This document shows, in pieces, positions 8,722 to 44,608 of a stretch of 45,951 nt of DNA. Source of the DNA: a virus. The stretch spans positions 1 to 45,951 of the IMG/VR virus record IMGVR_UViG_3300006162_000021. One strand, given 5' to 3'. The number at the start of each line of letters is the position of its first letter. Positions within the stretch are counted from its first letter, which is position 1. The notes beneath the pieces were generated by a model. The model was not told the DNA's origin, made no database searches, and was given only the letters and a program-made list of their open reading frames with translations. The position numbers and the translations under genes are program-made.

Positions 8722-11700
8722 TTATACATGCTGGTTATGCAATGGATCCTGTGATGGAGCCGCTTTTGGATCTTGCGTTGGAGTCGTTGGTGCTTGATTC
8801 TTGCAACCTGGCTCCTGTTGTTTCTCGTTTTTAACGGTTGCTTGCGAGCAAGGATTTGTTGCTTGTCCGAGTTTTTGAGCAGCCGTTGGATATGTTGGCG
8901 TCGTTGCAACGGTACCATGCGATGTTGTACCGTGAACGATTGCTTGTCTATTCAATGCTGAATTTGTTGACGTCTGGTTGTTAACAATAGGATTTTGTGG
9001 TGCTGACTGTGCTGTTGATGGCGCCGTTAGAGTCAAGCCGCTATACACTTTATTTGCGGCCCATTGACGGAAGTCACTAACAGTTTGAACGCCAGGATAT
9101 GGATTCAACAATTCAGGATTTGCCTTAACAGTTTTAGCCCACGTGTCGGGAAATATGTTTGCCATAATATCACCGCCACGACCTTCATTATCAAATGCTA
9201 TCACACGCTTTGCACCTTCTGTTCCATAAAAGTGAGCAAGATAGACATCTCCTGGGCACGTTGATTGAATTGCAAGTTCATTTGTTTGCAAGAAGCATGC
9301 GCCTGCAAGAGCAGCCCACTTAGGATTAGTTCTTTGTTCAAGAACTTGATCGGCTGTCAAGCCATCTTTTTCTTGAGGAATTGTACTAGATGCTATTGGA
9401 TGCTTACAGAGGACTTCTTTCCACGTATCAGGAATGAATTGGAACAGTCCAAGAGCGCCTGATGTCTTAGATGGTACACCAGGATTAAATGTACTTTCAA
9501 GGTAAGCAATAAGAGCAAGCGTTCCTTCATCAACGCCAACTTTACTTGCTGCATATGATATTGCCTGCTGAACGGCAGGGCTAGCCTTTTTATATCCCTT
9601 AACATTATTTGGATCAATAGGAAGAATGCTTTTATTACACGTCAAAGATGTAACATCGTTAAATGACGTTGGTGGTGTATCACTATTGACGGGTGCATTG
9701 TTGGGAAATACTGTTGTTTGAACGCAAGGCTTATTGGCAGGAAGATCAAAACAACTTGATGTTGAGATGTTTGTCATATTTTTTGTTTGATTGCCGTTTC
9801 CAACAGGAAGAGGCGTTGGAAGAGGAAGAATGTCTAACTCTTGCGTAAATGTTCCATCTGCAAATATGTTTTCAATTCCAACTACATAGTAATATCCTTC
9901 ATACCAGAAAGATTTTCTATATTGCGGCGTGTTAGATTTGTTAGCACCTTCAAAAAAACTCAAATCGTCATTAGATGCAGGCATAAAAATGTTTAGCTTT
10001 ACTAACATTGGAAAGCTACCAAATGAAGATCCAGGACCCGTAAGAGCTTGTTGTCCAGTTCTTTGTTCAAAATGTGGAATGTTAACAGGTCCTGTCACTA
10101 ACGTGTTTTTAATTGAGTATGATTTTGTAGCACCAGCCTTTGTATCAATATCTTCTAGTGTTGGAATGATGTTTGCAGGGCAAGCAACATTATTGATTGA
10201 CGACAGTAGATTATAGTTTCCGACAATTTTTAGTTTTGAGTCAAATGATTCAAGTGAAGAATATTTGTTCAACGTGAAGTGCGATGAAGCAGTCTCAAGA
10301 ATGTTTGTTGTGTTTTCCAATCCGCGGAGTTTTGCACCAAAGAACACAGGAACCTGAACGCCAGGATCTTTTTGAGATGTTGAGGCTGCTTGGTTGGCTT
10401 TATCAAATGCTTTTGTATCAAATTTACGGAATGGATCATATGTTGGATCAACAACGATTGAACTTGCTGGAATTACTGATAACTGATCCTTCAAGTTGTT
10501 TGACATTGAAGCAAGTTGAAAATATGTTAAGCCAGCATTCATTTTCATACTGTACTCTAATACATCAATATTTTTGCCAGAATAGATATAGTCAAATTCT
10601 ATGCATTGTTTCTTAGCTTGTTGCTGAATGTACTGAGCACTAGAAATATCGCTTGGTGTTGCAGTACTTGTTTGTGTCGTCGTTTGTGCCTTCATTACTT
10701 CTTCTAATGTTACGTTAGTAACAACAGGGATTCGACGAACAAAGTAATAGACAATAAATGAACGTGTTTTTGCCGTTGCTGTTGGTGATACACTTGAAGA
10801 TGGTGATGTATTTGTTATACTCTGCAACGTTGTAAAAATACGATATTGATAACGTTGTCCTCCAACTCCTTCTGTTGCTTCTTTCTGAACTTGAACAGAT
10901 CGCTTCATAATCGTATGAATAGCATCTTCAATTGTGTAGCCTACAGGTTGTTGTGCTGTACCTGTTTGAGGGTTGCACGTTGCTGTATTTGCGTACTGTG
11001 GATCTTGGTTTGTTGTTGCTTTATCATCGTAATAACTATCCCAGAATATAGCATATGTTACTGGTGTTAGTAAACTTGCCTTAGATGGATTATCTCTTAG
11101 TATTTGAGAGAATGCACAAGAAAAATATCGATCATATCTTATATTAATATTAACAGCTAAGTCACGCAACGAAATACCAATCGTTTTGCTAATAGGAAAT
11201 GAGAATCCGTCTGCAACGCGACAGTATTGTGGCATTCGTGTTGATCCAAATGATAGTGGAACATACTCACAAGTATAAACAGCACCATTTTCATTGTATT
11301 CTGCATCTAAACTGATTAATGTTCCAAACGTTGGAACAATATTTCCAATGAACATTGTTCCTTTTTCTTGCGTAACGCCAGCAGTTGTTGGAGCAATGCC
11401 ACCAGAAGGTGCTTGTGTTGTGTCTCTTTGTGTTGGCGATAGTTCATCGACATATCCAATAAAAAATGTCTTGATCATAAGAACAGCTGTCGATGGATCA
11501 ATGTTCAGTGCTTTTGCACATAGAACAATTGTATCCATAAATGTTACACCACGTGGTTCAGATACTTTGAATGAGCCTTCAATTGCAATCGATGTTCCAC
11601 TATCTGATTGGACAACATATCCACCATTGATAGCAGAAAATTTGAATTCTGTAATAATAAAATCGGCATCGGTTGCACCGTTAATGATTACACAGTACTT

Positions 11701-14212: not shown

Positions 14213-15277
14213 ATGAAGACCCTACGAAAGTCTGCTCTACTGACGGATATCCACTTTGGTAAGAAAGCTAACTCAACAGTTCACAATGAAGATTGCTTGA
14301 GATTTCTTGATTGGTTTTGCGAACAAGTAAAAAACGATCCAGAAATTGATCACGTCGTCTTCTTGGGAGACTGGAATGAGAACAGAAGTTCGATTAACGT
14401 CGCAACTCTGAATTATTCTTACCAAGGCGCGAAAAAGCTAAACGAACTCGGACTCCCAGTTTATTTCTGTGTTGGAAACCACGATCTCTATCACCGACAC
14501 ACACGCGAGTTGCATTCAATCGTTCCATTCCAAGAATTTTCAAACTTCAAGGTAATCGATCAGCCGATCGTTGATAAAAACGTTGGTGAAGGTGTCCTAT
14601 TTGCTCCGTATATGTTCCACAATGAATATCCAACCCTTTCACAATATAATAAAATTCCTGTGTGGATGGGTCACTTTGAATTTCAAGGCTTCGTTATTAC
14701 TGGATACAACCAACGAATGCTAACTGGTCCTAAGGCCGATCAGTTTGAAAATGTCCGAAAGATATTCTCTGGACACTTCCACAAGCGTCAATCGCAGGGA
14801 AATACACATTACATCGGTAACTGTTTTCCAATGGACTTCTCTGATACTGGTGACGACGAGCGTGGAATGGCAACGTATGATCACGTCAAAGGAAAGACAG
14901 AATATATCAACTGGGAAGATTGTCCAAAATATCTTCGTGTCAATCTAACTGATCTTCTCGATGAAACGGTTCTAATTCCAAAGCACGCACGTGTAAAGTG
15001 TGCTGTTGATACCGCTATTACTTTCGAGGAAAGTGCGTTTGTAAGACAGAAGTTCCTTGAAGACTTTGAATTGCGTGAATTTACTCTTGAAGAGTCGAAA
15101 GAAATTATGAGTGCATTAAAAAACACACAAACAAATGTTGTTGATGAGGATGGCGAATTCAAGCTCGACAGTGTCGATGAACTTGTCACACAGATGTTGC
15201 AAGATATCAACTCTGATCACATCGACAACAATATGCTGATTCAGATCTACCGCGATCTGCGGATCGAGGTTAAGTAA
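14213..15277 (+). CDS. gp47: Recombination endonuclease subunit gp47 (Mre11/SbcD-like)
   Basis: This 354-residue protein is close to T4 gp47 (339). It shows the calcineurin-like phosphoesterase motifs in order: DIH (residues 12-14), GDWNENR (about 52), GNHDLYHR (about 87) and GHFHKR (187-192). With gp46 it forms the nuclease that resects DNA ends for recombination-dependent replication. Its TAA overlaps the gp46 ATG by one base (TAATG), so the two subunits are translationally coupled. AGAGGA precedes ATG 14213. Confidence 0.94.
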   Translation: MKTLRKSALLTDIHFGKKANSTVHNEDCLRFLDWFCEQVKNDPEIDHVVFLGDWNENRSSINVATLNYSYQGAKKLNELGLPVYFCVGNHDLYHRHTRELHSIVPFQEFSNFKVIDQPIVDKNVGEGVLFAPYMFHNEYPTLSQYNKIPVWMGHFEFQGFVITGYNQRMLTGPKADQFENVRKIFSGHFHKRQSQGNTHYIGNCFPMDFSDTGDDERGMATYDHVKGKTEYINWEDCPKYLRVNLTDLLDETVLIPKHARVKCAVDTAITFEESAFVRQKFLEDFELREFTLEESKEIMSALKNTQTNVVDEDGEFKLDSVDELVTQMLQDINSDHIDNNMLIQIYRDLRIEVK

Positions 15278-17043
15278 TGATCAATTTCACAACTCTTTCA
15301 ATGCGAAACTTTTTGAGTTATGGAAATAACGTAACTCAAGTCAATCTTGACCGAACAGGTACAACAATGATTCTCGGCGAGGATCTTGACAACACATCAA
15401 ACGGCGAAGGTGCTAATGGTGTTGGTAAGTCAAGTATTCTCAATGCACTCGTCTATGCGGTGTACGACAAGCCGGTCTCGAACATTTCAAAAGATAATCT
15501 TGTCAACAATGTAAACAAAAAGAATATGGAAGTTGCTGTTGAATTCAACGTTCACGGCAAGACATATAGAATCGTTCGCACTCGTAAAATGAAAGCAGGT
15601 GCTGCAGGAAATACTGTTCACTTATATGAAGGTGAGCACGATATTACACTTGATAGTGCATCTGCAACAAATAAGCTAATTGAACAAATTATAGGAATCA
15701 ATTATGAGCTTTTCTGTCGGATTGTTGTGTTTTCAGCTTCTCATACTCCTTTTCTTGATCTTCCAGTTACATCACACTATGCAACTAACCAAAAAGATAT
15801 TATTGAGGAACTATTCGGTCTCACGTCAGTATCTGCAAAGGCACAGGCACTAAAGGATGTTATTAAGGATACAGAAATAAAGATCGATTCGTGTAAGATT
15901 CGTATTGAGATGTTGGAGAAGGAAAAAATTCGTCATCAACAGCAAATCATCAAGGCGAAGGAGCGAGTTGATACGTGGACAACACAGACAAAGGACAGCA
16001 TTAAAAAGCTAAAGTCTAAGTTGAAGCGCGTTGAAGAGGTTGATGTTGAGGAACAACAAAAGCAGCATATGTTATTATCACAGGAAGAAGATAGACTTCA
16101 GATTTCTCTAAACAATCAAAATACGTACGAGAAGCAAGTTCGCGAATTATCAAAAGATATCAAGAAGAATGAAGCAGAGCTTGAGCATCTTCGTGATGCA
16201 AAATGTCCTCGTTGCTTGCAAAAATATGCAGATGCTGCAAAAGAAATTGCAACTGCTGAGCAAACGTCAGAAAATCTTGCTAACGCTCTTGCTCAAATGT
16301 ATGAGAAAATTAATGCTGAGAAGCTTGTTATGAGAGATGTTACTCGTCATATTAAGACTATCAAAGAATTAATTGTTGTCGAGGATATTGAGGAGCTTTT
16401 AAAGATTAAGAGTGATAGTGCGTTGATTCGTCAGAAGTTGAACGACTTGCAGTCAGCAATTAATCCTCACTTGGAGACGTTGCAGGAACTTGAGGAAACA
16501 AAGCTCGATGAAATTAACTATGATGAAGTTAATACGTTGACAAAACTCGTCGAGCACCAAAAGTTCTTATTAAAGCTTCTTACAAAGAAAGATAGTTTTG
16601 TACGTAAAGCACTATTAAATAAAAACATTCCATACTTGAATGGTCGTCTCCAGCACTATCTATCAATTCTTGGTTTGAGTCACAACGTTGAGTTTACACA
16701 CGAAATGACTGCAAGAATTACGCAATTTGGAAATGATCTTGATTTTGGCAACTTGTCTGCTGGACAAAAGGCTCGCGTTAATATCGCTCTATCGTTTGCA
16801 TTTAGAGATGTGCTGCAAAGTTTGCACACAAAGATTAATGTTTGTATGCTTGACGAAGTTCTTGATGTTGGTCTTGACGTTGTTGGTGTCCAGGCTGCTG
16901 CTCGTATGTTGAAGCGTAAGGCGCGTGATGAAAAGATTTCATTGTATGTTATCAGCCACCGTGAAATTGATAGTGCGTTTGATAGAGTTATGACAATTCA
17001 GTTGTCGAAGGGATTCTCTTATATTAAAGAAGAAGTTGAATGA
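15277..17043 (+). CDS. gp46: Recombination endonuclease subunit gp46 (Rad50/SbcC-like)
   Basis: This 588-residue protein is close to T4 gp46 (560). Walker A GANGVGKS is at residues 45-52. Long Lys/Glu-rich coiled coils flank a zinc hook CPRC at residues 310-313. The ABC signature LSAGQKARVNIALSFAF lies near residue 495 and Walker B VCMLDEVLD near 523. It is the ATPase partner of gp47, organised as two coiled-coil arms with a hook for dimerisation. Its stop overlaps the next ATG (ATGA). Confidence 0.95.
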   Translation: MINFTTLSMRNFLSYGNNVTQVNLDRTGTTMILGEDLDNTSNGEGANGVGKSSILNALVYAVYDKPVSNISKDNLVNNVNKKNMEVAVEFNVHGKTYRIVRTRKMKAGAAGNTVHLYEGEHDITLDSASATNKLIEQIIGINYELFCRIVVFSASHTPFLDLPVTSHYATNQKDIIEELFGLTSVSAKAQALKDVIKDTEIKIDSCKIRIEMLEKEKIRHQQQIIKAKERVDTWTTQTKDSIKKLKSKLKRVEEVDVEEQQKQHMLLSQEEDRLQISLNNQNTYEKQVRELSKDIKKNEAELEHLRDAKCPRCLQKYADAAKEIATAEQTSENLANALAQMYEKINAEKLVMRDVTRHIKTIKELIVVEDIEELLKIKSDSALIRQKLNDLQSAINPHLETLQELEETKLDEINYDEVNTLTKLVEHQKFLLKLLTKKDSFVRKALLNKNIPYLNGRLQHYLSILGLSHNVEFTHEMTARITQFGNDLDFGNLSAGQKARVNIALSFAFRDVLQSLHTKINVCMLDEVLDVGLDVVGVQAAARMLKRKARDEKISLYVISHREIDSAFDRVMTIQLSKGFSYIKEEVE

Positions 17044-17361: not shown

Positions 17362-17874
17362 ATGGCAACAATTATTGGAATCGATCAATCCTATACTTCT
17401 TGTGGTATAGTAGTAATACAGGATGGAACGATGGTACATCACGAACGTGTGGTAACGCCGATAGCAATGGACGTGTATGATCGTGCAAACTATCTTGCTC
17501 ATCATATCAATGGTGTTGTTGGAAACTACACGAACTTTGATAACGATCCAACGGTGTGGCCAGTGATAGGAATTGAAGGACTAGCATTTGGAATGCGTGG
17601 TAATGCAACGCGTGATCTTGCTGGTTTATTATTTGTAATTATTACGACATTGCGAAATTGCAATGGTGATTTGAAGATTGGAATTGTCTCTCCTCTAACT
17701 GTCAAGAAGTTTGCGACAGGAAAGGGAAAGGCAGATAAGAAGCAATTATATGAAAAATTACCAGACGATGTTAAGACAATATTAGAAACGAACTATAAAA
17801 AGACCACAGGCTTGTACGACCTAACGGATGCATATTGGATAGCGAAATATACTGAAGCGGCACAAGCAAAATAA
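17362..17874 (+). CDS. ruvC: RuvC-like Holliday junction resolvase
   Basis: This 170-residue protein matches the size of bacterial RuvC. The RNase H-fold catalytic residues can be placed: D8 in IIGIDQSYTSCG, E72 in VIGIEGLAFG, and D153/D156 in the C-terminal YDLTDAYWIAKY. It would cleave branched DNA before packaging. In T4 this role belongs to the unrelated gp49, so RuvC is a replacement typical of some jumbo phages. The CGGAG site is at 17351-17355. A terminator-like hairpin follows about 165 bases downstream. Confidence 0.85.
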   Translation: MATIIGIDQSYTSCGIVVIQDGTMVHHERVVTPIAMDVYDRANYLAHHINGVVGNYTNFDNDPTVWPVIGIEGLAFGMRGNATRDLAGLLFVIITTLRNCNGDLKIGIVSPLTVKKFATGKGKADKKQLYEKLPDDVKTILETNYKKTTGLYDLTDAYWIAKYTEAAQAK

Positions 17875-18160: not shown

Positions 18161-18200
18161 CAAAAAGAAAGAGCTCTCTGACCAACGGGAAGAGAGCTCT
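18161..18200 (-). terminator. Rho-independent terminator of the gp26 unit
   Basis: A perfect 10-base-pair stem (AGAGCTCTCT 18170-18179 / AGAGAGCTCT 18191-18200) with an 11-base loop is followed on the minus strand by TTCTTTTTG. It lies 33 bases past the stop at 18233. Confidence 0.8.
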
Positions 18201-18232: not shown

Positions 18233-18514
18233 TTAGAAATTTGGATGCATCTTCTTTGATTCTGCTTCAAGACGGTCCTTAATAAATTCTGTCACAATAT
18301 CTCTTTCAAGCGGTGACATATCAAGTAAGTCTTTGTACTGCACAGAACCTCTCATAAAATATGCTAAACTAACAATTCCTTCGAGTAATCCTCGTTGCGT
18401 GTCTTTCAGTCGCCCGAACATTTTTTGGATGTCGGGAACCGAACCAGCCTTAAGCGTTATGTAAAAAAACTTACTGGATTTGCTGATACCTGGATAGGCA
18501 TTTCCTGTTTGCAA
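18233..18514 (-). CDS. Frameshift extension of gp26 (tail-assembly-chaperone-like C-terminal part)
   Basis: The -1 frame relative to gp26 is open from 18517 to 18233. The only upstream start is a TTG at 18514 with a ribosome site too close to work, and the first ATG (18421) has none. The frame meets gp26 at the slippery heptamer 18463-18469. A -1 slip would read ...SFF-YITLKAG..., adding 76 residues to give a 335-residue fusion. The extension is helical and charged (LLDMSPLERDIVTEFIKDRL). This matches the G/GT arrangement of tail assembly chaperones in other long-tailed phages, and may be the counterpart of T4 gp51. Expression by frameshift is inferred. Confidence 0.65.
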   Translation of the reverse strand: MQTGNAYPGISKSSKFFYITLKAGSVPDIQKMFGRLKDTQRGLLEGIVSLAYFMRGSVQYKDLLDMSPLERDIVTEFIKDRLEAESKKMHPNF

Positions 18515-19239
18515 TCCTTACAAACTCGAGTAACTGTAAAATCGGTTCCCCAGTCTGTCATACCATCGACCTTTTCTTGAATCATTTTCTTCCACTTAAT
18601 CGGAAGTTGGCCGAACCATTCAATAATCTGTTCACGGTCAATAACATTGTCAACAGATTCAATGATTGATGCAAACGTGTGAGACGTAATGCTCATAAGT
18701 TGTGCTTCTGTTTGTTCATCTTCACGTTGCATTGCCTGCTCATGCATAACCTTTACAATATCACCAAATGACATTGGCTTCATCTTGATGACTTGTCCAT
18801 TTGGTAGTGTCAATGTAAATGCAGATCCAATTGTTGTTGGATCAATTTGTTTAGAGTTCCGAACAATTTCTTGAACATTGACATCGTATGTTCGTTCTTT
18901 AGCGCCTTCACAATTGTGCTTATATAGCACGTCGATGTTATCACCAAAGGATACTTGACGAAGTGCAACCATTAGATAATCAACATCTTTAGCGAGAAGA
19001 TCGAGTGGCTTCTTTACTTGTGGAATGCAACGACCAAATACCTCTTCGATTGCTTTCCCAGACATTAGCTTATCAGGCATCGACAAAGTAAATTCGTCGA
19101 TTGTTGTTAGTGGAAATACTTCAACTTCACCATCCTTGACGGAAGGATCAAGCTCGCCGCTGTGATAAAATAGTCCCTGAGATGGCATTCGATATGTAAT
19201 ACCAGGGAGACGTATTTTTGCTAGTAGTGGATTATCCAT
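18457..19239 (-). CDS. gp26: Baseplate hub assembly protein gp26-like
   Basis: This 260-residue protein matches the T4 gp26 type (208 residues; T4 baseplate family): an N-terminal ITYRMPSQGLFYHSGEL, a central ETMNR-like helical part, and a C-terminal CKDCKQEMPIQVSANPVSFF ending typical of this family. I chose ATG 19239 because AGGAGA lies 8 bases upstream; a longer open frame to 19344 lacks a ribosome site and runs through the late box. It is encoded opposite the tape measure gene. In T4 it belongs to the hub assembly set (26, 51, 27, 28, 29). Confidence 0.78.
   Translation of the reverse strand: MDNPLLAKIRLPGITYRMPSQGLFYHSGELDPSVKDGEVEVFPLTTIDEFTLSMPDKLMSGKAIEEVFGRCIPQVKKPLDLLAKDVDYLMVALRQVSFGDNIDVLYKHNCEGAKERTYDVNVQEIVRNSKQIDPTTIGSAFTLTLPNGQVIKMKPMSFGDIVKVMHEQAMQREDEQTEAQLMSITSHTFASIIESVDNVIDREQIIEWFGQLPIKWKKMIQEKVDGMTDWGTDFTVTRVCKDCKQEMPIQVSANPVSFFT
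18463..18469 (-). other. Candidate -1 ribosomal slippery site T TTT TTT
   Basis: On the minus strand gp26 reads AGT TTT TTT ACA TAA. The heptamer T TTT TTT allows both Phe tRNAs to re-pair in the -1 frame, four bases before the gp26 stop, entering the open -1 frame that ends at 18233. Confidence 0.65.
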
Positions 19240-19277
19240 ACTATTTTCTCCTAATGAAAACTTCTTGTAGCAACAGC

Positions 19278-19331: not shown

Positions 19332-21863
19332 ATGGCTGATACATCAGACGTCCAACAATTAAAACAAATGACTCAACAGATGATGCAGCAGTTTCGAGAG
19401 CAATCGATGCTGCTGAGTGGAGCCATTCGTGATTCGGGAGCTGTTCTTTCCGACTTTGCGACCAATGTCGATCACCTCAATAAAGTCACATCAGATTCCG
19501 TCAAGGATCTCGTCGGACAGTCAAAGCTATTCAAAGAAGAAACTAAGAAGCAACAGGAAGAACGTGAAAAGCTATACGCTTTAAAGCGTGAGCAATTAAA
19601 GCTTCAACGCCTTCGTGTTGAAATTGAAGAAGAGATGATCAAGCAATCTGGTGGTGCTCTTGATAAGAAAAAGCTCCAAGCAATGACAGATGATGCAATT
19701 CAAAAAATGATCGAAGAGAATGAGAAAAAATTCGAAGAAAACACTAAAGAACTTGCTGAAAAAGTTGCCGGTGCTGATAAAACAATTACTAATCTGACAG
19801 AGAGTTTAGAGCTTGCTGGTAAGATTGGTGGCGAAGCATCAATTGAACGCCAGCGTCAGTTGTCGAATCAAATTGATGATGCAAAGAAAGAAAAGCAAGA
19901 GAACATGCAAAAGCTTGCTGATGCAACAAAAGCAAATGCTCAAATCCAAGGAACAGCAAAGAGATTTGCAGACATTAATAAAGCAATGGCAACATATCCT
20001 GGAGCCATTAATGACTCTATTACTGCATATAAAAAGCAAGGCTCTATTATGGCACGCGCCAACGATGCTGTTGAGAAAAATATAGAAAAGTATTCTTCTC
20101 TTGGTGCTGTATTGACTGCTGTTGCCATTGCTGCTAACGCTCTAATGAAGTCATTGCAAGCACAAATATCTGCTGGTGGTGGTATCATCGATGAAGGGTT
20201 TACAGGAATAGTTAAGAACTTTGGTCGTGTCTTTACGCTGGGAATTCAGCCAGAAGAAATGGCTAAGATGGCTGCAGAAAACCGTCAGGCTATTAATTCC
20301 GTTGGTGGACTCAGTAAAGCACTTGATGAAACAAATCCTCTTTTTAGTGAATTGGCTGCTCGTACAGGATCAACGACGGAAGCACAGAAGATACTACTGA
20401 AGCAAATGACTCAGTTTGCAAGTGTTGGTGTTAAACCGTCGACAGAAGCTTTAAAGAAATATAATGATGATATAGCAACGTTATCGGCAACTACTGGAAT
20501 GTCAACGGAAGCCGCAACAGAATTTTATCAATCTGTTGCAGGAGATGCTGATACTATCAATCTTCTTCGTAAAGCTCGTGAAGGAGAACGTGAGCAAATC
20601 TTAGCAAACCAACGTGCGATGATCCAACAAAACATTGCACTTGGTATGACAACAGAGCAAGCTAGAGAAGCTGCTAAGATGTTAAATCACATGGTTGCTC
20701 AGAAGCCCATTGATCGTATTAAACAAGCAGCAAAAATGCAAGCTCTTGGCGGTGCTTTGGGTGTTAGTGGTGGTGCAGAGGCAGCAGCTGCTTTACGTGC
20801 AGGAGCTCGAGCAACAAAAGAGCAAAAAGAGCAACTTGCCAAATATCAAAATAGTCTAGCTAATGCTGCCGATCAAATGCGAGCATCTGGTGAAGGTGGT
20901 GAAATTGTTGCAACGCAACTTGTAGACAAATTGGGACTTGATCAACAGTACGGACCCAACTCTCCATTTTCATCAACCTTGGGGACTCAACTTGCGCCAG
21001 GTGTAGAATTGGCTAAAAAACAACTAGAGCAAAACGATGTCGCTAAAAGTGAAACACTTCAAGCATTAAATAGAATTCAACAATCAATTGCTGGCATCAT
21101 GGGCAATAACGTATTCGGTACGCTCGCAACGGCCGCTATTGCGATTGCAGGCTTTGTAAAGTTTGGTAAGCCACTGCTTCAAGGTACTGGAAAGATAATG
21201 AGCAAGCTTGGTGGCAAAGGCGGTACGGGTGGTGCAGCAGGACTCGCTGAAAACGAAATTGCAAAGACAGCTGAAGGGGAGGTTGTGAAGGGAGCCGAGC
21301 ACGCCGCGGTCGACGCTGCTGGTAAGGTTGCTGTCAAAGGTGGGGCAGAAGCTGCTGCAAAAACAGCAGGAAAAGGAATTGGTAAATCTCTTCTAAAGAA
21401 GATTCCATTAATTGGTCTTGGTGCTGGAATACTGTTTGGTGCTCAACGCCTGATGGAAGGTGATATGTTAGGAGCAGCTGGTGAAGTTGCTTCTGGTGCT
21501 GCTGGAACAATTCCAGGCGTTGGAACAGCAGCGTCTATTGGAATTGATACGGCACTTGCAGGTCGTGATATCTATAAAGCAAGTCATCCTGATACAGAAG
21601 AAAAGAAGAACGAAGCTTCTGATGCAACAAATAAGCAAACTGATGAAATAGCAATGAGACAGAACGAACAGACGCAACTGTTCTCACAGCAGCTTGCTGC
21701 CCTAAACGACCAAAGTATGAAGTTTGATAAAATGATTGACCTCCTTTCGAAGAGCAACGATCTTGCCGAAAAGCAAATTGAAGCGATTGGCGACCCTAAG
21801 CAAGTACCAAAAATCGTTGCTGACATTTCACAGGGTGGTGCAAGATACGCTAACGTAGGATAA
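19332..21863 (+). CDS. gp29: Tape measure protein, gp29-like
   Basis: This is 843 residues long (T4 gp29 is 590). Residues 1-240 are long charged and Gln-rich coiled coils. The middle is Ala/Gly-rich and helical with hydrophobic stretches (VLTAVAIAANALMKSL about residue 262; VFGTLATAAIAIAGFVKFG about 595; IPLIGLGAGILFGAQRL about 697). The end is again Gln-rich and charged. This composition, together with its place before the portal and opposite gp26, is that of a tape measure. At about 1.5 angstrom per residue it would specify a tail near 125 nm (inference). The ribosome site is weak (CGGGGT). Confidence 0.82.
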   Translation: MADTSDVQQLKQMTQQMMQQFREQSMLLSGAIRDSGAVLSDFATNVDHLNKVTSDSVKDLVGQSKLFKEETKKQQEEREKLYALKREQLKLQRLRVEIEEEMIKQSGGALDKKKLQAMTDDAIQKMIEENEKKFEENTKELAEKVAGADKTITNLTESLELAGKIGGEASIERQRQLSNQIDDAKKEKQENMQKLADATKANAQIQGTAKRFADINKAMATYPGAINDSITAYKKQGSIMARANDAVEKNIEKYSSLGAVLTAVAIAANALMKSLQAQISAGGGIIDEGFTGIVKNFGRVFTLGIQPEEMAKMAAENRQAINSVGGLSKALDETNPLFSELAARTGSTTEAQKILLKQMTQFASVGVKPSTEALKKYNDDIATLSATTGMSTEAATEFYQSVAGDADTINLLRKAREGEREQILANQRAMIQQNIALGMTTEQAREAAKMLNHMVAQKPIDRIKQAAKMQALGGALGVSGGAEAAAALRAGARATKEQKEQLAKYQNSLANAADQMRASGEGGEIVATQLVDKLGLDQQYGPNSPFSSTLGTQLAPGVELAKKQLEQNDVAKSETLQALNRIQQSIAGIMGNNVFGTLATAAIAIAGFVKFGKPLLQGTGKIMSKLGGKGGTGGAAGLAENEIAKTAEGEVVKGAEHAAVDAAGKVAVKGGAEAAAKTAGKGIGKSLLKKIPLIGLGAGILFGAQRLMEGDMLGAAGEVASGAAGTIPGVGTAASIGIDTALAGRDIYKASHPDTEEKKNEASDATNKQTDEIAMRQNEQTQLFSQQLAALNDQSMKFDKMIDLLSKSNDLAEKQIEAIGDPKQVPKIVADISQGGARYANVG

Positions 21864-21931: not shown

Positions 21932-23629
21932 ATGGCAAAGTTATCATCATACTTTAAAGTAGTCACTTCGAAACCTAACGTCACATCGATGACGGATAGC
22001 CAGAACATTGGCGATCAAGGAACGTATGCTAACTACACTTGGTATCAACGTCTGATTCAAGGTTCTGCTTCTCGTATTACACGTTATCGTGAATACGATT
22101 TGATGGACAATGACGTTGAGGTCGCCCGTGCTCTTGATACGATCGCAGAAGAAATGATCGGCAATGATGAAGAGACTGATCTCCCACTAGTTCTTGATAT
22201 TGATACAGAAAAAACAGAAGAAGTAATGTCATCAACAGTTATGACATTACGTGCAGCTCTAAGATATTGGAGCCACCTACATAAGTGGCACATTCGTTTA
22301 TTTAAACTATGCCGTGTTGCTATTAAGTATGGTGATTGTTTCTTCATTCGCCACAGCGATACAAAACAGTGGGAATACATTCATCCAAAGAACGTTGTTG
22401 CAGCTCTTGTTGATGAGCATGACATGACAAAGGTCGTTGGATGGCAGATTAAGAAAGAAATTCGCGCTCCTAATAGTCCTTACAATCAAGCAGCTGGTCA
22501 ATATGGAACGGCTAATGAGAACACAGTTGATATCTATCCTGCATCAGCAGTTGTTTGGTTTACATTAAACGATGATATTTCTGAAACGGCTCCTTTCGGT
22601 GAGTCCGTTCTTCGCGCTGTATATCGTGCACAAAAGCAAAAGGAATTGTTGGAAGATGCTATTATCATCTATCGTATCCAACGTGCTCCAGAACGTCGTG
22701 TATTCTACATTGACGTGGGCAAGATGCCGCCAAACCGTGTTAAGACATATCTTGAACAAATCAAGAATGAAATTCGTCAACGTAAGATTCCAACATTCGG
22801 TGGTGGACAGGATCAAGTTGACAGCACATACAATCCGCAAGCAATGAATGAAGACTTCTTCTTTGCACAGCGTCCAGAAGGTCGTGGTTCTAAAGTTGAA
22901 GTCCTCCCAGGTGGAGCAGGACTTGGTGAACTTGCTGACTTGGAATATTTCCAAAGTAAAGTATTCCGCGGCTTACGTATTCCTCTCTCGTATATGGAAG
23001 TTGGAGCAGAAAAAGGAAATCCAGGACCAGTATACTCTGACGGTAAGACAGGAATGGCTTACGTTCAAGAATTACGCTTTGCTCTTTATATTGAACGTCT
23101 ACAATCACACGTTGAAGAAGTTCTTGATACAGAATTCAAACGTTATCTACACGCAGCAGGTATTCACGTAGATACATCCGTTTTTCAAATTAGACTCCCA
23201 GCACCAGAAAACTTTGGTAAGTATCGCGAGCTACAACTATCTTCCGAGCAGTTGAATACTCTCGGATCTGCTGCAAGTGTTACGTATATGTCAGCTCGCT
23301 TTAAGTTGATTAAGTATGGTCAACTTACAGACGAAGAAATTCTTCTTAACGAGCGGATGCTTCGTGAAGAGAAGGGACTTAACGTCAATGGCGGCAAAGA
23401 AGATCTACCTGCTCTGTACGGACCACCACCAGAAGAAGGTGGACTCGGTGGAGGTGGTGGCGGAATGATGGCAGGCTTAGGCCCTCCAGGACCAGGTGGA
23501 ATCCCAGGCGAGGAAGGTGGCGAGCTTGGTGGGGAAGGTGGTGAGCTAGGCGGTGGTGATATGGGAGCTGGTGCTCCTCCAGGCGGCGAAGAAGGTGGGG
23601 CACCTCCAGGACCAGCTGCAACCATCTAA
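21932..23629 (+). CDS. gp20: Portal protein gp20-like
   Basis: This is 565 residues long (T4 gp20 is 524). Features seen: RYREYDLMDNDVEVARALDT near the start, DDDISET-like VWFTLNDDISETAPFGESVL, then RIQRAPERRVFYIDVGKMP, and SKVFRGLRIPLSYM. These are the conserved gp20 segments (portal stem and clip region). The last 75 residues are a low-complexity Gly/Pro/Glu tail that T4 gp20 lacks. The portal ring is the DNA entry channel and the terminase and neck docking site. It has its own late box but only a weak ribosome site (GAAAGA). Confidence 0.93.
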   Translation: MAKLSSYFKVVTSKPNVTSMTDSQNIGDQGTYANYTWYQRLIQGSASRITRYREYDLMDNDVEVARALDTIAEEMIGNDEETDLPLVLDIDTEKTEEVMSSTVMTLRAALRYWSHLHKWHIRLFKLCRVAIKYGDCFFIRHSDTKQWEYIHPKNVVAALVDEHDMTKVVGWQIKKEIRAPNSPYNQAAGQYGTANENTVDIYPASAVVWFTLNDDISETAPFGESVLRAVYRAQKQKELLEDAIIIYRIQRAPERRVFYIDVGKMPPNRVKTYLEQIKNEIRQRKIPTFGGGQDQVDSTYNPQAMNEDFFFAQRPEGRGSKVEVLPGGAGLGELADLEYFQSKVFRGLRIPLSYMEVGAEKGNPGPVYSDGKTGMAYVQELRFALYIERLQSHVEEVLDTEFKRYLHAAGIHVDTSVFQIRLPAPENFGKYRELQLSSEQLNTLGSAASVTYMSARFKLIKYGQLTDEEILLNERMLREEKGLNVNGGKEDLPALYGPPPEEGGLGGGGGGMMAGLGPPGPGGIPGEEGGELGGEGGELGGGDMGAGAPPGGEEGGAPPGPAATI

Positions 23630-43202: not shown

Positions 43203-44153
43203 ATGAAGCTATGTGAAGTCCTTAATGCAGGTGTTCCTTTTGAAGTAGCTCCTACAATCGACGATGTTGAGGATTTCTTGCGAAAAAATCTTGGACTAAC
43301 AGAATTTAGAAGGATGTCGTCTAAAACGATTGCTGTTCTTACTCCTAACGAACGAACAGCAGTATTAAAAAATATCATTGCAATATTGCCTGGTGCAAAG
43401 TATGATCCAAATGGCTCTCACATTGGCAGAGCACTCTATAGTGGGTTTACAATTTATGTAAAGCCAACGCCAGGTACTGTATCAAACAGAGTTCAGCAAG
43501 GAACATTGGCTCAAGACTCAGTCGTTAAATGTCTTCGTAATGTTCTTGGTGATAGATTGCAAGTGTTGTCAGTAGCATCAACGGGAGCAACATCATCGCA
43601 AGGTGCTTGTGATGTCTTAATAACAATTGATGGAAAAAGAACTTACCAATTAGAAGTCAAGAGCTCTAAAGCAGGGTTGGGAGCAGTTATTACTTTATAT
43701 GATAGAACCGTATCACGAACAAAACCAATTGCAGAAATTGATCAGTACGTTGCTGCTATAACAGGCAAGAAAAATGATACTCTTGCAAAATATGTCGATC
43801 GTCAACGAAAAAAAGATCAAACGCAAGGTTATCCAGGAGACGTTGGAGTTACAAACGTATCTGGTAAAGTAACTCAGTTAAGAATTGACCGCACGCATCC
43901 AAACATGGCAAATGTGTATGAATTAGTTAAACAACATTTCCAAGCTAATGGTGACGATTATCTTGTCGTTCACGTTAGTGATACAGAAATAGAATTCTTT
44001 CGCGTTGATGAAAAACAACCTCCTATTACTAAAGACTTAAATGATCCATTGCCATTGCCAGCATTCATAGAACTTCGCACATATGGTAGTGCTCGTCCAG
44101 GGAAAAATGGTATTGATGGAAGAATGCGTATAGCCGTCAAAATTAGATTATGA
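43203..44153 (+). CDS. Putative PD-(D/E)XK nuclease between terminase genes
   Basis: This 316-residue protein starts at ATG 43203 (one base after gp16), MKLCEVLNAG; an upstream in-frame ATG lies inside gp16. The stretch from residue 134 has the nuclease-like core D137 in GACDVLITIDG and E151-V-K153 in YQLEVKSS. The N-terminal part RMSSKTIAVLTPNERTAVLK and GFTIYVKP resembles a domain I have seen in large marine phages. The MKL start resembles the accessory genes after gp23. A nuclease in packaging, host-DNA attack or resolution is possible. Confidence 0.75.
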   Translation: MKLCEVLNAGVPFEVAPTIDDVEDFLRKNLGLTEFRRMSSKTIAVLTPNERTAVLKNIIAILPGAKYDPNGSHIGRALYSGFTIYVKPTPGTVSNRVQQGTLAQDSVVKCLRNVLGDRLQVLSVASTGATSSQGACDVLITIDGKRTYQLEVKSSKAGLGAVITLYDRTVSRTKPIAEIDQYVAAITGKKNDTLAKYVDRQRKKDQTQGYPGDVGVTNVSGKVTQLRIDRTHPNMANVYELVKQHFQANGDDYLVVHVSDTEIEFFRVDEKQPPITKDLNDPLPLPAFIELRTYGSARPGKNGIDGRMRIAVKIRL

Positions 44154-44608
44154 AACTTGATCAAATAAAAGAAACAGAACAACCAACTCTTCCACAGTCG
44201 CTGGCAGATCATTTTCGTTTCTATCTTGACGATTTAAAAGATGGATCTGGTGCCGGCAAAGTTAATATAATAAAGTGGATCCGTAACAAATATGGACTTG
44301 GTCTCGTTGAATCACTACATGTTGTTGATGCTGTCTTGAATAAACTAAAAAAAGATTCAACAACACCATCTAAAATTAAATTGATATTAACGTGTCGTGA
44401 TAGTGATATTGCAATGCAACAGCAGTTAAATGGCGGTATAGATAGATCAAAGCACAACTTAGACTCATTACTTGCAACAGCATCGCGTATTGATAATCTC
44501 CCACACAACGGAAAACCAACACCTACCAAGAATCGTGAAATGGTAGTTCGTATGGCGTATGCTCAATTCCTCAAGACCGCTCAACGAGTTATTAAAACGT
44601 ATAGGTAA
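44150..44608 (+). CDS. Hypothetical protein with C-terminal RMAY motif
   Basis: This 152-residue protein starts MKLDQIKETEQPTLPQ with ATGA overlap on the nuclease gene. It is helical and basic, and ends NREMVVRMAYAQFLKTAQRV. This ending matches AARVMRMAYNQLLKAGIRAI of the protein at 28327 about 16 kb away. No known fold was recognised. Its stop is followed by the gp17 late box. Confidence 0.7.
   Translation: MKLDQIKETEQPTLPQSLADHFRFYLDDLKDGSGAGKVNIIKWIRNKYGLGLVESLHVVDAVLNKLKKDSTTPSKIKLILTCRDSDIAMQQQLNGGIDRSKHNLDSLLATASRIDNLPHNGKPTPTKNREMVVRMAYAQFLKTAQRVIKTYR

Follow-up and report, generated by a model that had tools for sequence, protein, structure and literature searches.

The slippery heptamer of genes G and GT in bacteriophage lambda is GGGAAAG. 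These genes yield short and frameshift-extended tail assembly chaperones, frameshifting being of low efficiency, and T4 was for long listed as the exception to this otherwise conserved feature of tail chaperones (PMC5009743). The E/E+E′ system of bacteriophage P2 is annotated with a −1 frameshift. Its short open reading frame has the heptamer T TTT TTG towards the 3′ end, is followed by a small −1 extension and adjoins the tape measure gene. Frameshifting is reportedly conserved in several groups of T4-like phages, while T4 itself is said to use genes 26 and 51 (Vladimirov, Gautam and Davidson, Virology 2022, doi 10.1016/j.virol.2021.11.003). A passage of PMC10885494 credits Vladimirov et al. 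2022 with separate short and fused long tail assembly chaperone (TAC) genes in some T4-like phages, and another, in PMC12846349, credits the same work with poly-T signals for −1 frameshifting in the TAC-N genes of T4-like phages. Both T4 proteins, gp26 and gp51, figure in a list as chaperones of hub assembly, and gp51 is needed although it is not part of the particle (PMC3004832).

The locus that we consider here belongs to a stretch of 45,951 nucleotides, all of it named the window in what follows, to which the coordinates refer. A single gene of this stretch, from a jumbo phage related to T4, very probably encodes both tail assembly chaperones by way of a −1 frameshift. The likeness with lambda G/GT, a short and a frameshift-extended chaperone, is one of logic; the heptamer differs. 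That with P2 comprises the type and the position of the heptamer, the small extension in the −1 frame and the neighbouring tape measure gene, but not the sequence of the extension, which compares with E′ at the level of shuffled sequences. The TAC locus of Vandenendeviridae/Andersonviridae (phage Adele), as presented in a passage of PMC12846349, likewise has, in the TAC gene of a myovirus, a poly-T signal for −1 frameshifting; the motif is a different one, GTTTTT, and the phage group is another. The T4-like TAC-N/TAC-NC genes of Vladimirov et al. 2022, as far as the passages that cite them go, belong to the same gene family and follow the same short/long logic; what the window brings is new sequence, that of a jumbo lineage known without cultivation. 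The initial annotation knew of no such frameshift described in T4-type phages, and the same passages of PMC10885494 and PMC12846349 tell otherwise. The concept is thereby known already, and the window locus is to be seen as a clear new example of it in a jumbo lineage. The presence of these chaperones in T4-type phages, a view already published, gains support from further lineages with this locus and its relatives: many lineages would frameshift, and T4's own group has the two forms split into genes 26 and 51.

Organization of the locus

The gene of interest, read on the minus strand from the ATG at 19239, was identified as gp26 by its match to Pfam family PF12322 (E 3e-16, 60.1 bits for a cut-off of 24.5), by phrog_150 ('baseplate hub', E 4e-20) and by an AlphaFold model that matches T4-like gp26 proteins in BFVD; a sequence search of the PDB with the gp26 profile gave no match. 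Its 3′ end reads AAT CCA GTA AGT TTT TTT ACA TAA, so that the slippery heptamer announced by the initial annotation is indeed there, in X XXY YYZ phase and one codon ahead of the stop (Table 1). Among the 73 open reading frames of the window with at least 100 codons, gp26 alone has, within its terminal 60 nt, any heptamer of the form XXXYYYZ that leads to a −1 extension of at least 50 residues, and runs of seven Ts are some eight times rarer in the window than expected (4 seen, about 32 in shuffled sequences). The coupling of T TTT TTT to a −1 extension at gp26 is confirmed as real and not due to chance. The four seven-T runs, on the minus strand, are at 9952-9958, 18463-18469, 43808-43814 and 44347-44353.

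Table 1. Features of the gp26 locus, in coordinates of the window
Feature	Coordinates	Strand	Remarks
Shine-Dalgarno AGGAG of gp26	19248..19252	minus	upstream of ATG; read from sequence
gp26, probable short tail assembly chaperone (TAC-N, 'G'), PF12322	18457..19239	minus	260 aa
Slippery heptamer T TTT TTT, in gp26 phase	18463..18469	minus	from sequence; same site in relatives
gp26 stop TAA	18457..18459	minus	3 nt (one codon, ACA) past heptamer
Predicted −1 extension (TAC-C, gp51 C-terminal type)	18233..18463	minus	76 aa + stop; joined by slip to gp26 residues 1-259
Candidate stimulatory stem-loop, weak	18397..18448	minus	begins 14 nt past heptamer; spacing longer than usual
Terminator-like hairpin (AGAGCTCTC...GAGAGCTC then TTTCTTTTT)	18161..18200	minus	just 3′ of extension; read from sequence
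Divergent neighbour, likely tape measure/virion structural protein	19332..21863	plus	843 aa; from position and PHROG

Open from position 18517 onwards, the −1 frame closes with the TAA at 18235-18233, and its sequence past the slip site runs from YITLKAG to MHPNF. The only start codon that precedes the conserved part of the extension is the TTG at 18514, which abuts AAGGA with zero spacing, and the first in-frame ATG, 48 nt downstream of the first base of the heptamer, has no Shine-Dalgarno sequence; the extension is, as first proposed, devoid of a usable start of its own. Most ribosomes would stop at the TAA, making gp26, the short form, akin to lambda gpG or P2 gpE. A minority of them would slip back by one base on T TTT TTT, both Phe tRNAs re-pairing with TTT, and would go on to fuse gp26(1-259) to the 76-residue C-terminal domain, producing a long form akin to gpGT or P2 gpE+E′. 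The pair would presumably bind the tape measure protein, recruit tail tube or hub subunits, then leave; by analogy with lambda G/GT (PMC5009743), coating of the tape measure may fall to the short form and recruitment of the tail subunits to the long, rarer one. In this scheme, slippage in vivo, its rate and these binding roles are what we infer.

A position between the tail tube and tape measure genes is usual, not universal, for chaperones of the G/GT type, and HTVC008M displays this canonical order (tail tube, gp26, extension, one open reading frame, tape measure). In the window, gp26 is not located between these genes. Its divergent neighbour, the PHROG matches of which are limited to the C-terminal region, has the same position as the divergent gene beside gp26 of RaK2, annotated as similar to tape measure. 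The G/GT layout beside a tape measure gene, as read initially, is to be corrected in that gp26 is divergent from the tape-measure-like gene and not directly upstream of it. The surroundings also comprise a SbcD/SbcC nuclease pair of the genes 47/46 type (14213-17043, plus strand), a RuvC-like resolvase (17362-17874) and a portal protein (21932-23629).

Conservation of the slip site and of the reading frame beyond it

A tblastn search with gp26 matched 44 phage records, all of them below 60% identity. The arrangement was tabulated, besides the window, in 18 loci, namely two from IMG/VR and those of 16 named relatives: XacN1, 121Q, RaK2, PAC2, Atu_ph07, RAS14, Phosso, Kaldavass, XaC1, SCTP-2, Vibrio 2.275, YB07, N34, D527, HTVC008M and cyanophage KBS-M-1A, a set that spans jumbo phages (the first five and others) and Menderavirus as well as Rhizobium and Vibrio phages. 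All 18 have T TTT TT[TCG] at the equivalent Phe-Phe codons (Phe-Leu in N34), followed by a −1 open reading frame of 56-80 codons. With a marine gp26 as the query, IMG/VR yielded 80 cyanophage-like loci, every one with T TTT TTC, then one codon, then the stop, and with a −1 open reading frame of 59-68 codons (two of these truncated at contig ends); the gp26 of XacN1 had no match in IMG/VR. The codon before Phe-Phe always ends with T, whether it specifies S (AGT or TCT), A, N, H, R, D or Y. Taking codons as independent and with their own usage, the chance of this invariant T would be about 10^-12 for 19 mostly divergent loci and about 10^-22 for the 65 marine loci below 90% identity, values that overstate the case because the loci share descent. 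The pattern extends, still, over phages the gp26 of which are some 20-40% identical. Comparison between loci, called for from the outset, shows here that the slip site is conserved wherever the arrangement was tabulated.

Could the break between frames be a flaw of the DNA sequence? A single additional T, making a run of eight, would join the frames in one continuous gene. Yet over 95 other loci break the frame at equivalent codons, some of them in genomes of isolates with T6C, and a second IMG/VR contig (L002), which may come from the same sample, is identical to the window locus over 6780 bp. A homopolymer base-call error is already refuted by these comparative data, and we give it practically no weight. 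Slippage of RNA polymerase on the T run, some messengers gaining or losing a base, would produce exactly the same fusion from the seven Ts that exist in the window. Transcriptional slippage in bacteria usually needs longer runs. Most relatives carry only T6C, and neither the X XXY YYZ phase nor the fixed second Phe codon, TTC in 65/65 of the non-redundant marine loci while it makes 29% of the Phe codons elsewhere in the gene, would be explained, so that we hold this origin of the fusion to be very improbable.

The −1 frame itself tells how it is read. In most loci a stop in this frame is found 0-8 codons upstream of the heptamer, and there can therefore be no initiation in the −1 frame from upstream. 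The motif FF[RYQ]xx[LI][LMK] is conserved directly past the heptamer, ahead of any start codon, and in XacN1, RAS14, XaC1 and locus L122 the −1 peptide is conserved across 30-33 nt where the 0 frame also codes, without conservation of the latter. Comparison thus shows conserved −1 reading across the slip itself. This is where the idea that the extension is a separate small gene, with its own start or re-initiated after the gp26 stop, has to be weighed. It is what database annotation holds in 121Q (gp595), KBS-M-1A and HTVC008M; an ATG overlapping the stop, or nearly so, lies 9-21 nt downstream of the first base of the heptamer in seven relatives (121Q, Atu_ph07, Phosso, Kaldavass, YB07, N34 and D527), and stop-start overlap is found without the canonical heptamer in Ackermannviridae and Cygsa01. 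A separate gene would, however, leave the invariant heptamer without a reason; the window, XacN1, RAS14, RaK2, PAC2, XaC1, SCTP-2, HTVC008M, KBS-M-1A and many marine loci lack any usable start ahead of the conserved residues; and in T4 the extension domain is fused in frame. We consider it unlikely, if somewhat less so than polymerase slippage. A programmed −1 frameshift of the G/GT kind, the reading proposed at first, is supported by a heptamer universal in the relatives with the arrangement, by −1 conservation spanning the junction and by collinearity with gp51. Relatives that have both the heptamer and a nearby ATG could also make a free C-domain. Loci L005, L006, L007, L010, L104, L106 and L110 display this combination, with the ATG overlapping the gp26 stop or just at it.

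As to possible stimulators of slippage, 83 nt on the 3′ side of the heptamer in the window would fold with −22.2 kcal/mol (11 of 200 shuffled sequences doing as well, z −1.95), and a search upstream of the heptamer found no strong stimulator resembling a Shine-Dalgarno sequence (duplex energy −3.9). The marine loci have a mean z of −1.5 for downstream RNA structure, with no consensus in the alignment. They also have GAGGG some 9-14 nt upstream of the heptamer, and strong pairing with the anti-Shine-Dalgarno sequence is found there in 71% of them, as against 12% of control windows; the window does not have this GAGGG. This stimulator is only suggestive because a conserved Glu-Gly pair accounts for the GAGG, which is not clearly more frequent there (20/29) than at other Glu-Gly pairs (6/11, p 0.47).

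Relation with gp26 and gp51 of T4

Genes 26 and 51 of T4 are adjacent and divergent. Their products both match PF12322 (9e-64 for gp26, 4e-52 for gp51) and phrog_150, the match of gp51 extending about 45 profile positions beyond that of gp26. The profile of the predicted fusion aligned end to end with the gp51 family of the T4 group (pairwise HHalign, 244 columns, E 3.2e-18), the slip junction being in register with ...VFKLLVNPDEI of gp51. In a comparison of the kind proposed at the start, the extension alone matches the C-terminus of T4 gp51 at the family level, with E 4.9e-8, these HHalign values being single-comparison E-values; controls made of the reversed extension and of eight column-shuffled ones gave E 0.22-0.73, and T4 gp26 gave 0.26. 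With extensions of jumbo phages only, the match to gp51 has E 3e-4 and a probability of 39%, and it becomes strong only once marine sequences are included. A comparison of the gp51 model with PDB folds gave no match, so that ancestry shared with the chaperones of lambda, P2 and HK97 would be conjectural.

From these profiles, T4 gp51 is a gp26-type domain followed by the extension, a long form that would be made in frame. Because the fusion is collinear with gp51, we can understand T4 gp51 as the long form and T4 gp26 as the short form; the fusion of the window would then be the orthologue of the former, and its short product that of the latter. The comparison shows homology with gp26 and gp51 alike, and the conjecture of the initial annotation, that the two T4 genes descend from a G/GT-like arrangement, is borne out to that extent by the collinearity and by the PF12322 domain common to both. 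While the PF12322 domain and a gp51 collinear with the fusion are shared by the two systems, T4 differs in that its two forms are separate, divergent genes, without a slip site.

Lineages without the canonical heptamer, and annotation of the extension

Ackermannviridae (the Vi01 group and BX-1), Vibrio K351 and Cygsa01 have kept the extension while the T TTT TTY heptamer is absent; all have NTT TTY, frequently together with TAATG. Ackermannviridae and similar loci (L103, that is Vi01, L105, L107, L020 and L125-L142) have NTT TTY before the stop, usually with TAATG; loci of the Kuttervirus type read TAATTTTTG, with no ATG at all. We may tentatively entertain, at somewhat less than even confidence, that the long chaperone is made in at least three ways in T4-type phages: by a −1 slip on T TTT TTY in jumbo, marine, Vibrio and Rhizobium phages; by duplication followed by in-frame fusion in the T4 group; and, in Ackermannviridae, by stop-start coupling or else by a slip of one tRNA, as in T7, at NTT TTY. 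In this view a free C-domain might be made in addition by several of the lineages with heptamer and ATG. In an uncultured megaphage (L014:1477-2497, LR756508.1), an extension-like open reading frame overlaps gp26 in the +1 frame and not in the −1 frame.

A practical consequence bears on annotation. In database entries the extension is given a late start, at an internal Met, and its conserved first part is lost (L019:3232-3369, L102:1753-1890, L003:2343-2525), and the extension of cyanophages and of HTVC008M is named 'baseplate hub assembly catalyst'. In most cases, the small open reading frame that follows gp26, be it labelled 'hypothetical' from a late start or given that name, ought to be annotated as one with gp26.
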